From the NCBI GenBank assembly GCA_029887795.1, contig JARXPE010000005.1, forward strand, positions 1-60,088: a stretch of DNA of 60,088 nucleotides, given 5' to 3'. The notes under the pieces were generated by a model. That model saw nothing but the letters and a program-made list of their open reading frames with translations, ran no database searches and was not told where the DNA came from. Position 1 is the first letter of the stretch, and each line of letters starts with the position of its first letter. The position numbers and the translations under genes were made by a program. Of the stretch, positions 37,124 through 44,536 are shown piece after piece. The DNA comes from Thermoproteota archaeon. GTDB taxonomy: Archaea > Thermoproteota > Methanomethylicia > Methanomethylicales > Methanomethylicaceae.

Positions 37124-37927
37124 ATGTACAGACCTTGGTACCTGGAAGGGCTGACATACGACTCGGTAACTTTTTTGGGCGAAGCCAAGGCCGTGGATGA
37201 GGAGTATCTGATGGAGGGGGAGCAGAAGGAAAACCTTTGTGGACCTTTTGCGGCGGCGTACATCTTGAGGGGTTTAGGTTACAGACACCACAATGGAAAC
37301 TTTGTTGACCAGGAGTACGTTGCGTACCTCGCAAGGACGCGCGTTAATGCGGGCGAGAAAGGATTGTACAAGTACCCCCTCTTCGAGACCTCGTCGCCAG
37401 CCGAGCTGGGAACAAGTGCCGTTGGACTTAAGTATGCCGTGGAAACCATATCGGAGGGAGGGCTAGCGGTCATCCCCGTGAAAACAGTAGATAGATCCGT
37501 TGGACCGCTGATCGACGAGGATAGGCTCCAAGAGTTAGTTAAGGCGTTCACAGAAGAAAATGCCCAGCTCATACTCAACCTGAACACAAAACACTTGCTT
37601 GAAGGTCCGGACCTTAACAGGAAGTTATTATCCTGCGACTGTGATGTAGACTTGAGAAACGGTCTGAAGAAGAGGGAAGGTGTCGGGCATTTTGTATCCT
37701 GCGCAGGCTTTGTGAGGAGAGTGAAGACATTTTTCATAATAAGGGAGACCTACAAAAAATTCGGGGTGCAGTTGCAGCCCTTCGATTCGATCTTGGAAGG
37801 GTTGAAGAGGGGAGATGGAAGGGAGGGCGGGATACTAGCGATTATTAAAAAGGAAGGCAAGAATTCGCTCATTGGGCGATTGCAAAGTTTTGAGTTGAGC
37901 TTGTGGGACAACGGAAGTCCTTTCTAA
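37124..37927 (+). CDS. Papain-fold-like (C39/NlpC-like) protein of unknown function
   Basis: QKENLCGPFAAAYILRGLGY candidate catalytic Cys and GVGHFVSCAGFV candidate His; 15 bp after the GS-like gene. Confidence 0.55.
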   Translation: MYRPWYLEGLTYDSVTFLGEAKAVDEEYLMEGEQKENLCGPFAAAYILRGLGYRHHNGNFVDQEYVAYLARTRVNAGEKGLYKYPLFETSSPAELGTSAVGLKYAVETISEGGLAVIPVKTVDRSVGPLIDEDRLQELVKAFTEENAQLILNLNTKHLLEGPDLNRKLLSCDCDVDLRNGLKKREGVGHFVSCAGFVRRVKTFFIIRETYKKFGVQLQPFDSILEGLKRGDGREGGILAIIKKEGKNSLIGRLQSFELSLWDNGSPF

Positions 37928-40947: not shown

Positions 40948-41826
40948 GTGGGCAAGCCTCAAAATGAGGCGCAGAAGGTTGTTATCTTGAGAAGTGGGTT
41001 GAAAATTCACGTTCCAATTTCCGTAATGCTCCTCGCATCACTGCTAGTTCTCTCCCCATTAATCAATTTGTCCGCCTCCGGCGAGAGTATAACGATAAGG
41101 ACTCAGCCCGTGACGATATTTGACCCGAATAGGGAGTATGTGTACGCCGAGTATAGGGGAGATGCGGACATCATTGTGGCGGTAGTAAAGTCAGACCCTG
41201 GCATTTTGGTGGAGGGTGGCAAACAGGTCGGCGAAAATGCATGGGGCTACTTCAAGGTCTACATAGCGAACGCCACTTCGAAGTCTTACCTTTGCACGCT
41301 TGCACTAATCTCGTCTCAGCCATTCTTGGTCAACATTTCCTTGAGGAGCGGCGATCTCCCAGGGACCCAGGCGCAAATGATCTCTGTGCCAGCCAACATA
41401 ACCGCGCAGATCGAAATTCCGATAGTTTACGGGAGCTACCAGCAACCAGTCGTGATAGCACCAACGGTGGGATACATGCCTGCCTTTCCGCTATGGTCCC
41501 TCGTCTCCTACCTAGTTTTAATACCGATGTTTCTGGCAACCGCATACCTTGACAAAGGGTCACTTAAGGCTGTTAGAAAGCGGTGGAGTGCCTTTGACAC
41601 CTTCGCGCTTACAGTGAGATACCTCTTTTACTCCTCACTTGTCATATTTGTCTTGGTCACAGTTGGAGTTTTCTTTGAGTTTTTGATGATCAGGTTCTAC
41701 TCTTGGGGCATCCAACTCCATGCGGGGGATTGGCTCCTCGCCTGTGCCCTGCTCTCGGTGTTCGGTCTGATGTACGGCATAGGTAAGTGGAGGGGTTTTT
41801 TTGACAATATCGATGAAGAAGATTGA
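40948..41826 (+). CDS. Membrane protein with extracellular domain, overlapping the AAA-Lon gene
   Basis: N-terminal hydrophobic signal, Ser/Thr-rich ectodomain, three C-terminal TM segments; 26-bp overlap with the next ORF. Confidence 0.7.
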   Translation: MGKPQNEAQKVVILRSGLKIHVPISVMLLASLLVLSPLINLSASGESITIRTQPVTIFDPNREYVYAEYRGDADIIVAVVKSDPGILVEGGKQVGENAWGYFKVYIANATSKSYLCTLALISSQPFLVNISLRSGDLPGTQAQMISVPANITAQIEIPIVYGSYQQPVVIAPTVGYMPAFPLWSLVSYLVLIPMFLATAYLDKGSLKAVRKRWSAFDTFALTVRYLFYSSLVIFVLVTVGVFFEFLMIRFYSWGIQLHAGDWLLACALLSVFGLMYGIGKWRGFFDNIDEED

Positions 41827-44536
41827 AGAAGAGGAGTCGTACTGGTGGGTCAGGAGACCCTACCTACGTAAGCTCTTAGCCCTGCCCCTCTACCTAGCCA
41901 ACAGGGAGTACAGGCGCTGGAGGAACGCAAAACTCAACCCGAGGAAAGTCCAGAAGAAGCTGGCAGAGCTTGAGAAAAAGTTCCCCAAGAAAAGGGAGGA
42001 CGTCGTGGGGAGGGATAAGGAGTACGAGCTCATAATGAGCGCCGTGGGATACCACGTTATCAGGGATCACTCGCTCACGACCGTTTTCAAGGGCGCGCCC
42101 CCGCCCAAGTTCTTCCTCCTCAAAGGCACGACGGGTTCTGGGAAGTCTCTCCTAGCAGAGGTCTGCCTCAGGGACGCCATAGAGTACGGACTCACCAAGG
42201 GAGTAAACGTTCAGCCCATAGTGGTCATGGGCAACGACATATTCAATCCGCTCTACGGTCAATCTGTCCTCAACATGTCCTACATCTTCAGGCGGGCGAA
42301 GGATGTCCCGTCAATAATCTTCTTCGACGAGTTCCAATCCATAGGTCTCCGCGTGGAGCGGTCAATGTACTCCACTGACAGGGAGGACATGAGGGTCCAG
42401 GACGCCTTCGTAGAGCACATCAACAGGATACTGAACACCTCCCAGCGGACCATAGTCATAGCCGCGACCAACAGGTTTGAGGGCATAAGGGAGGACATAA
42501 GGAGGAGGGCACACATACTCGACTTGGACCTGAACATTACTAGAGAGATGCTGTTGGCTGTCCTGAACGCAGAGCTCCAAAAGTTCGGCTGGACCCACCT
42601 CTCCGCGAAGGAGGTCCTCACCGTTCTTGAAAGGGCAGTAAGCACGTACAGGCAGACGCAGCTCACGCCCTTCGACATAATAGACGCATGCAACAAGGTC
42701 AGGAGCAGGAAGATAGAGCCGCTCAGGGAGCGGTTCTTCAGGAGGGTGACCGGAAAGAGGTTTACCCCAGAGGACATAAAGTACCTCGTCACGATAGAGG
42801 ACTTCAAGATAGCGGCGAGGGAGCTCAGGGGCTACACCGAGCAGGAGAAGAGCGACGAGGTCATGTCCTCGGTGCTGAAGATCAAGCCCGCGGTCAGCTA
42901 CAAGGACATAGGCGGGCTGTTCGGAATAAAGGAGAAGCTATTCAAGATAATTTCGCTGAGCCTCTCTACGGAGCTTGCGAGCAAGCTTAGCTGGGTACCA
43001 CCGAAGGGCTTTCTCCTATGGGGCGAGCCCGGGTGCGGCAAGACCTACCTCTCAAAGGCGATAGCTAAGGAGAACGATGCCGCTTTCTTCTACATACCGG
43101 CGGCTCAGCTCCTGATAAACGCCAAGTGGGTTGGAGAGCCGGAGAAGAACATTCGAGATCTATTCGGGCTTGCCAGGAGGTACGCGCCCAGCATCATCTT
43201 CTTCGACGAGTTCGACGTGATCGCCGGGAAGAGGAAGGGCGATCCTGTGAGCGACAGGCTCACGGCACAGATCCTGACGGAGCTCGACGGTCTGCAACCC
43301 CTGGAGAACGTGATAGTAATAGCCGCAACTAACCGACTTGAGATGATCGACGAGGCTATAATAAACAGGTTCGAGCCCTACGTCATAGAGATCCCGCTGC
43401 CGAGGACCGACGCCGAGCGCCTCGACGTTCTGAGAGTTCACATGAGGCACTATGCCGCCCACTTGCACCCGGAGGTGAGCCCGGACAGGGTCCTAGCAAT
43501 ACTGAAGAAATATCGCGCGGTATCACCGAGGGTCGTGGCAGAGATCATCAAGGAGGCGAACAGACTCAGGTCTCAAGAGGTTAACGTCGCGCTCGAGATA
43601 GCAAGGGCGCAGAGCCAAGAAAGGCTCAACGAGATAAACAACCTCTACAAGGAGGACCTAGCCCGCCTTCGTGCTGTCCTAGGAACCGACGACCTCTCAG
43701 CCATAAAGGAGGTCAGCCCCGAGAACTACAAGATAAGGCTCTACCACTTCGAGAAGGCTGCCGAGCAGCTCGAGGGCGAGATGGAGAGGGAGGTCATGGA
43801 CGCCCAGGAGAGCATGGTCTACGAGAGGCTGGACCCAGGGGTCTCGCTCGGGCTCGCCACCGACCCCCAGGGAAGGAGGGGCCTCATCCTCATCGTGGAG
43901 TGCGTCTCCAAGCCGAGGGGGACTGGCAAGGTCACAGTGACCGGCGCCGCAAAGGCTGCCTTCGTGGGCGCCGTGACTCCGGTGGAGGACGTGAGCGTCC
44001 TGGAGAGTGCCACGAACATCGTCGAGTTCGTAAAGAGGTACGTGTACGAGAAGGTGGGCGTAGACATCTCGAACTACGACTTCACCTTCCAGGTAATAAG
44101 CCCACTCGAGGGCGTGGCAGGGATGGGCGTAAGCGGTCCAAGCCTCGGTCTGGCGCTGAGCGTCGCTGCCATATCAGAGCTGGCAGGGATAGAGGGAAGA
44201 CCGGACGTGGTGATGAGCGGGAAGGGCGACATTAAGGGCAATGTTGGTCCCGTCGGCGGCATGGGATGGCGCGGGTCCGGGAAAATAATAGCGGCAGTCC
44301 AGACGAGGAGGATCAAGCTGAAGAAGTTCGTGCTCCCGAGGTGGAACTACGAGCACTCCCCCGACGAGATGGCGATCCTGAAGGAGGAGGGCATAGAGGT
44401 CGTACCGGTGGAGAAGCAGGTGGATGCCTGGCTAAGCATCTTTTCGATTACAGAGGAGGAGCTTTTGGCTAAGCTCGCGGCAAACCTAGGGGAGATCGTG
44501 GGAGTGGAGGTCAAGCCGAAGATAGACATCCTGTGA
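41801..44536 (+). CDS. Double AAA+ ATPase fused to a Lon-type (S16) protease domain
   Basis: AAA1: GTTGSGKS, IIFFDEFQSIG, AATNRFEG; AAA2: GEPGCGKT, IIFFDEFDVIAGKRKGD, AATNRLEMID; Lon: DISNYDFTFQVISPLEGVAGMGVSGPSLGLALSVAAISELAG and GNVGPVGGMGWRGSGKIIAAV. ATG at 41813 is an alternative start. Confidence 0.88.
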   Translation: MTISMKKIEEEESYWWVRRPYLRKLLALPLYLANREYRRWRNAKLNPRKVQKKLAELEKKFPKKREDVVGRDKEYELIMSAVGYHVIRDHSLTTVFKGAPPPKFFLLKGTTGSGKSLLAEVCLRDAIEYGLTKGVNVQPIVVMGNDIFNPLYGQSVLNMSYIFRRAKDVPSIIFFDEFQSIGLRVERSMYSTDREDMRVQDAFVEHINRILNTSQRTIVIAATNRFEGIREDIRRRAHILDLDLNITREMLLAVLNAELQKFGWTHLSAKEVLTVLERAVSTYRQTQLTPFDIIDACNKVRSRKIEPLRERFFRRVTGKRFTPEDIKYLVTIEDFKIAARELRGYTEQEKSDEVMSSVLKIKPAVSYKDIGGLFGIKEKLFKIISLSLSTELASKLSWVPPKGFLLWGEPGCGKTYLSKAIAKENDAAFFYIPAAQLLINAKWVGEPEKNIRDLFGLARRYAPSIIFFDEFDVIAGKRKGDPVSDRLTAQILTELDGLQPLENVIVIAATNRLEMIDEAIINRFEPYVIEIPLPRTDAERLDVLRVHMRHYAAHLHPEVSPDRVLAILKKYRAVSPRVVAEIIKEANRLRSQEVNVALEIARAQSQERLNEINNLYKEDLARLRAVLGTDDLSAIKEVSPENYKIRLYHFEKAAEQLEGEMEREVMDAQESMVYERLDPGVSLGLATDPQGRRGLILIVECVSKPRGTGKVTVTGAAKAAFVGAVTPVEDVSVLESATNIVEFVKRYVYEKVGVDISNYDFTFQVISPLEGVAGMGVSGPSLGLALSVAAISELAGIEGRPDVVMSGKGDIKGNVGPVGGMGWRGSGKIIAAVQTRRIKLKKFVLPRWNYEHSPDEMAILKEEGIEVVPVEKQVDAWLSIFSITEEELLAKLAANLGEIVGVEVKPKIDIL

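Follow-up and report, generated by a model that had tools for sequence, protein, structure and literature searches.

We identified a conserved pair of adjacent archaeal genes, one coding for a Lon-type S16 protease with two AAA modules and the other for a membrane protein, which constitute a real two-gene system and apparently one undescribed so far. Our main reading, to which we assign a probability of about two thirds, is that in TACK archaea the pair forms a two-subunit ATP-dependent protease, tethered to the membrane, which performs the function of LonB, and that of bacterial FtsH, where these are absent. The pair lies in a 60,088-nucleotide stretch of DNA (the window) from a 1.25-Mb MAG that is 92% complete and whose closest named relatives over the Lon region are Candidatus Methanomethyliaceae/Methanomethylicota (Verstraetearchaeota) MAGs, with 94-97% identity.

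The features of the locus are collected in Table 1. The original prediction had placed the start of the protease gene within the 3' end of the membrane gene, and the ORF coordinates agree: the overlap is 26 nucleotides when the protease is read from TTG 41801 and 14 nucleotides if ATG 41813 is the start. Since Met5, encoded by this ATG, is invariant in the 13 closest homologues, the protease probably begins there. Against congeneric genomes, dN/dS was 0.015-0.03 for the protease gene and 0.08-0.12 for that of the membrane protein; both genes are thus under strong constraint, and the ORFs are not due to chance. A promoter scan at the locus gave matches no better than shuffled sequence. Elsewhere in the window (37124-37927), a DUF6885 protein is encoded directly 3' of genes for a glutamine-synthetase-like protein and an amino acid permease; these genes could together form an uncharacterised nitrogen or gamma-glutamyl cluster.

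Table 1. Features of the protease and partner genes, in window positions; residue numbers refer to the 292-aa partner and the 911-aa protease.
Feature	Position	Strand	Basis or remark
Membrane partner gene	40948..41826	+	292 aa read from a GTG; actual start uncertain
N-terminal hydrophobic helix (signal peptide or TM), residues 24-38	41017..41061	+	Hydropathy, AlphaFold2
Predicted beta-sandwich ectodomain, residues 47-161	41086..41430	+	AlphaFold2; missing in G063 and G077 partners
TM helix region, residues 182-209	41491..41574	+	AlphaFold2; Trp183 invariant
Basic loop, predicted cytosolic, around DKGSLKAVRKRW	41554..41589	+	D202, W213 conserved
Long helix with TM segment, residues 215-251	41590..41700	+	AlphaFold2; Arg224, Tyr228 invariant
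TM helix, residues 259-281	41722..41790	+	AlphaFold2
Acidic C-terminal tail RGFFDNIDEED	41791..41823	+	Predicted cytosolic; kept in ectodomain-less partners
Tandem-AAA Lon-type protease gene	41801..44536	+	911 aa from TTG 41801; probably 907 aa from ATG 41813
N-terminal Trp-rich amphipathic helical region	41843..41980	+	W15 W16 in 28/29 sequences
AAA module 1	41996..42835	+	Walker A 109-116, D176/E177, N224, Arg234-236, pore-loop Y152-G153
AAA module 2	42854..43600	+	Walker A 408-415, D469/E470, N511, Arg523, pore-loop W443-V-G
S16 (Lon-type) protease domain	43814..44470	+	Pfam Lon_C; S16 tree
Predicted catalytic Ser781 (VSGPSLG)	44141..44143	+	Invariant 29/29
Predicted catalytic Lys828 (WRGSGKI)	44282..44284	+	Invariant 29/29; 46 residues between Ser781 and Lys828

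The protease had been described as carrying two complete AAA modules followed by an S16-like domain with a GPS serine and a GKIIAA lysine, a description borne out by Pfam and by the motifs. Pfam matched AAA in two stretches (E 8.5e-53) and Lon_C above its cut-off (E 4.1e-10, 40 bits against 21.1), and no LON domain appeared among the families matched. Read off the sequence, the protein contains two Walker A motifs (GTTGSGKS, 109-116, and GEPGCGKT, 408-415), FFDEF twice and AATN twice, and in the S16 domain VSGPSLG with Ser781 and GSGKIIAA with Lys828. By hydropathy it has no TM segment, the AAA region included. The AlphaFold2 single-chain model (pLDDT 80, pTM 0.50) matched p97 over about 600 columns, and from motifs and single-chain models we infer that the protein would combine a Cdc48-like tandem unfoldase with a Lon chamber.

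Next, the spread and conservation of the family were analysed. A full-strength match was obtained in 41 of 398 Thermoproteota genomes, plus one more (G112) in which the gene is cut by the contig end. When 84,980 species genomes were scanned with two peptide patterns specific to the family, 33 loci were returned, all archaeal and, where a group was assigned, all from TACK (Methanomethylicia, Nezhaarchaeota, MAGs labelled Hecatellales, Sulfolobales, Desulfurococcales, Bathyarchaeota and other TACK). A viral scan with the protease yielded generic AAA relatives only, with no S16-domain match. We aligned 29 homologues, drawn from Methanomethylicia, Nezhaarchaeota, Sulfolobales/Desulfurococcales MAGs, Bathyarchaeia and a third branch. 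The alignment shows no variation at the Walker A lysine and the Walker B Asp-Glu pair of either module, at the arginine triplet of the first AAA module, or at Arg523, Tyr152-Gly153, Gly445, Pro780, Ser781 and Lys828, and the sensor Asn224 is kept in 27 sequences. The second pore loop has W or Y in every member, allowing for an alignment gap in Bathyarchaeia. A Trp-Trp pair opens the N-terminal helical region in all sequences except one which, as translated, begins later, making this region a candidate partner- or membrane-contact element.

This conservation bears on the possibility that the pair is a membrane protein dislocase or chaperone, in which the AAA motor extracts or remodels its clients and the S16 domain is minor or regulatory. 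CDC48 is a segregase, and the closest motors to that of the protease are CDC48 and PAN, which suits such a role; however, the catalytic Ser and Lys persist even in branches with 36-40% overall identity, where an unused site should decay, and we regard the dislocase as improbable.

Phylogenetic analysis was carried out separately for the two parts of the protein. In the S16 tree, the domains of the family form a single clade (support 98/95), separate from all the comparators: TACK LonB, a LonA and AAA-less S16 proteins. In the AAA tree, both modules group with CDC48/PAN, the first being more divergent and on a long branch. Given the great length of the LonA/LonB branches (3.8-4.8) and the lack of clean monophyly for module 2, we claim only that the motor is CDC48/PAN-like: by sequence, it resembles CDC48/PAN and not Lon. 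The prediction that the second module is Cdc48-like is therefore in agreement with the tree and extends, in this CDC48/PAN-like form, to both. In NCBIfam, the highest-scoring models were likewise CDC48 and PAN over the motor and Lon chiefly over the C-terminus, and none came near its cut-off: LonA scored 59.5 against 608, LonB (TIGR00764) 52.7 bits against 516.6, covering the protease part only, and CDC48 (TIGR01243) 206 bits against 802.65, in a match that starts at profile position 170. A merely divergent LonB or LonA, that is, a member of a known Lon subfamily, would explain the Pfam Lon_C match and the Pro before the Ser, as in LonA, but not the two CDC48-type AAA modules, the lack of a LON domain and of a TM insertion, the scores far under the LonA/LonB cut-offs or the separate S16 clade, and we give this explanation very little credit.

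The membrane protein accompanies the protease with great regularity. The pair is present in at least 47 genomes (23 with the window type, 22 with the Bathyarchaeia type and 2 of the third branch, f58), and no protease locus with sufficient flanking DNA lacks an adjoining partner, so the gene pair proves conserved across archaeal genomes, a point that the original prediction had left to be checked. An unbiased comparison of neighbours found the partner beside the protease in all 14 window-type loci and all 9 Bathyarchaeia-type loci compared, and no other gene conserved across clades next to it. Of the 41 genomes of the window's class, the partner profile matches precisely the 15 with the protease and 0 of the 26 others (Fisher 1.6e-11), and the Bathyarchaeia-type profile matches 22 of 398 genomes, all 22 of them protease-bearing, including a resolved contig-end case. 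In a family with the partner inverted (f14; L157, L159-L164), the two genes are divergent, head-to-head, and still adjacent. Since the two genes occur together in one genome of genus g3 and are both missing from the rest, protease and partner appear to be gained and lost together. A second, stand-alone Bathyarchaeia-type partner was seen in one genome (L176, reverse strand, 1904-2680, G363:C1), with no protease gene within the 7 kb read.

For the partner itself, hydropathy revealed an N-terminal hydrophobic segment and three C-terminal TM segments, and the AlphaFold2 model (pLDDT 80.6) an N-terminal helix, a beta ectodomain and three helices, both in accordance with the predicted signal segment, ectodomain and three TM helices. 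The protein matched no family in Pfam or NCBIfam, and a fold search of the PDB and viral libraries gave no match at E<0.001, with weak beta-sandwich matches only. In Bathyarchaeia the upstream gene has a like layout and another sequence, and in the third branch a signal-ectodomain-TM gene again lies upstream of the protease. Alignment of the three partner types with hhalign gave probabilities of 24-28% (E about 6e-4 to 8.5e-4), values that are suggestive only, and by sequence the three are likely homologous. Across families the partner shows 22-28% identity, compared with about 69% for the protease. In two related genomes, G063 (L105:1415-1819) and G077 (L153, reverse strand, 124-aa ORF), the partner has lost its ectodomain, with all three TM segments, basic loop and acidic tail still present, which makes it a natural deletion mutant. 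Because these partners retain only that part, the TM/cytosolic part is suggested to be the tether.

The same observations speak to a second possibility, namely that the protease is a soluble cytosolic AAA+ enzyme and the partner, instead of a permanent anchor, is a regulating sensor or a dedicated substrate, in a case of regulated proteolysis on an external signal. The ectodomain and the fast evolution of the partner (dN/dS, 22-28% identity) fit a sensor or variable client, as does a protease without a TM segment of its own. The natural deletions, however, remove the sensor part and keep the TM/cytosolic part, and a strict 1:1 co-occurrence is more usual for a subunit than for a client, so that we consider this arrangement unlikely, if less so than the dislocase.

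The tethered two-subunit protease also has to be placed among the other proteolytic systems of these organisms. According to a review, archaea have two ATP-dependent proteases, 20S and LonB, of which LonB is likened to FtsH (PMC4343526). The genome of the window contains five proteasome-family genes, no FtsH M41 peptidase domain and no other Lon_C protein, which answers in the negative whether canonical LonB is also present. In the phylum sample, 28 genomes have LonB-like proteins and 41 the protease family, with an observed overlap of 0 for 2.9 expected (P about 0.04, a value confounded by clade structure). As some relatives (e.g. G004, G014) have neither the protease family nor any Lon_C protein, its role is not universally essential.

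The LonB-like proteins of the sample have a single AAA and two TM inserts, and several TACK examples (L090, L091, L093-L096) show a LonA-type GPS Ser context and a Ser-Lys spacing of 46 residues, which departs from the 42 of the published LonB definition. Crenarchaeal matches of 560-690 aa, considered as LonB, were rejected as AAA-less S16 proteins with an N-terminal signal. Several Thermoproteota families contain secreted or membrane-anchored S16 proteins of 550-690 aa without an AAA motor (L092, L097, L098, L106, L107, L108), with a signal segment, a GPSA active site and a long helical-looking C-terminal part, and anchored versions of about 290 aa occur as well (L101). One genome from the family to which the window belongs encodes a bacterial-type LonA of about 815 aa (L099, G020:C27), on a contig that is masked over a stretch close by, possibly through contamination or transfer.

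Substrates are threaded by AAA rings through their aromatic pore loops, and cleavage by S16 domains takes place inside a closed chamber. For the pair studied here, we infer hexamer formation, threading, proteolysis, the physical contact between the subunits and its topology, and the LonB-like role. The 907-911-aa protein would presumably assemble as a hexamer in which two classical AAA rings are stacked above a chamber of the Lon-type S16 domains; the aromatic pore loops of both rings would draw the substrate through to this chamber, where the Ser781/Lys828 dyad would cleave it. The partner would cross the membrane, with its TM bundle, basic loop and acidic tail binding the Trp-rich N-terminus of the protease and holding the ring entrance at the membrane, and its beta ectodomain, when present, may recruit or sense outside substrates.

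More broadly, and with slightly less confidence than in the tethered protease itself, we lean towards a third lineage of archaeal ATP-dependent proteases beside the proteasome and LonB, with an S16 chamber, a tandem CDC48-type motor and a separate, fast-evolving membrane anchor, which would have arisen by recombination of S16 and classical AAA parts, replaced LonB across several TACK clades and reached an FtsH-like membrane protease by an independent route. If true, such a protease would help to explain membrane policing in archaea without LonB or FtsH. Its architecture would mean that a Cdc48-type double motor is able to drive a Lon chamber, and the pair would be an example from nature of a membrane anchor provided in trans, with a naturally occurring deletion of the ectodomain as well.

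Neither Pfam, NCBIfam nor the open-access literature held a known family with this exact architecture, and no description of a double-AAA Lon was found in that literature, although a prior arCOG, InterPro or subscription-journal name is possible. By the published definition, Lon is a single chain with an AAA+ module per subunit, the membrane anchor of LonB is an insert, exactly 42 residues separate the catalytic Ser and Lys in LonA and LonB, and LonB has Asp before the catalytic Ser (PMC9569914). With Lon_C above its cut-off and an invariant Ser-Lys dyad, the family belongs to the S16/Lon superfamily. It has neither the LON domain nor the single AAA+ module of LonA, and of LonB it lacks the TM insertion in the AAA, a score above the cut-off and the Asp, Pro780 being invariant instead. 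The Ser-Lys spacing is 46 residues across the 29 homologues (48 in two sequences) and 42 in the LonA-type control L099; as a unique signature it was dropped, given that TACK LonB-like proteins also have 46, with the insert at a different place.

Like archaeal LonB (TIGR00764; MEROPS S16 subfamily B), the protease is predicted to be ATP-dependent, membrane-associated, of the S16 Ser-Lys type and with a cytosolic active site, and it probably occupies the same niche; unlike LonB, with its one AAA+ module and its own TM insertion, it has two CDC48-like AAA modules, no TM segment, a membrane protein in trans, Pro before the Ser and a separate S16 clade. With bacterial LonA it shares an S16 domain fused behind an AAA motor and the GPS active-site context, and it differs from this enzyme, which is soluble, starts with a LON domain, has a single AAA+ module and spaces its Ser and Lys by 42 residues instead of 46. 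With CDC48/VAT and PAN (TIGR01243, TIGR01242), of which CDC48 has its motor in tandem, the protease has in common a classical AAA motor that keeps both Walker sets and the aromatic residues of the pore loops. It falls below the CDC48 family cut-off, has no CDC48 N-domain and possesses a C-terminal S16 domain of its own where those motors dock on the 20S proteasome. By analogy with FtsH, a membrane span and an extracytoplasmic domain would be coupled to a classical AAA protease, with the difference that FtsH is one chain with an M41 zinc peptidase, a domain absent from this genome, whereas here two genes encode the system and the peptidase is an S16 serine protease.
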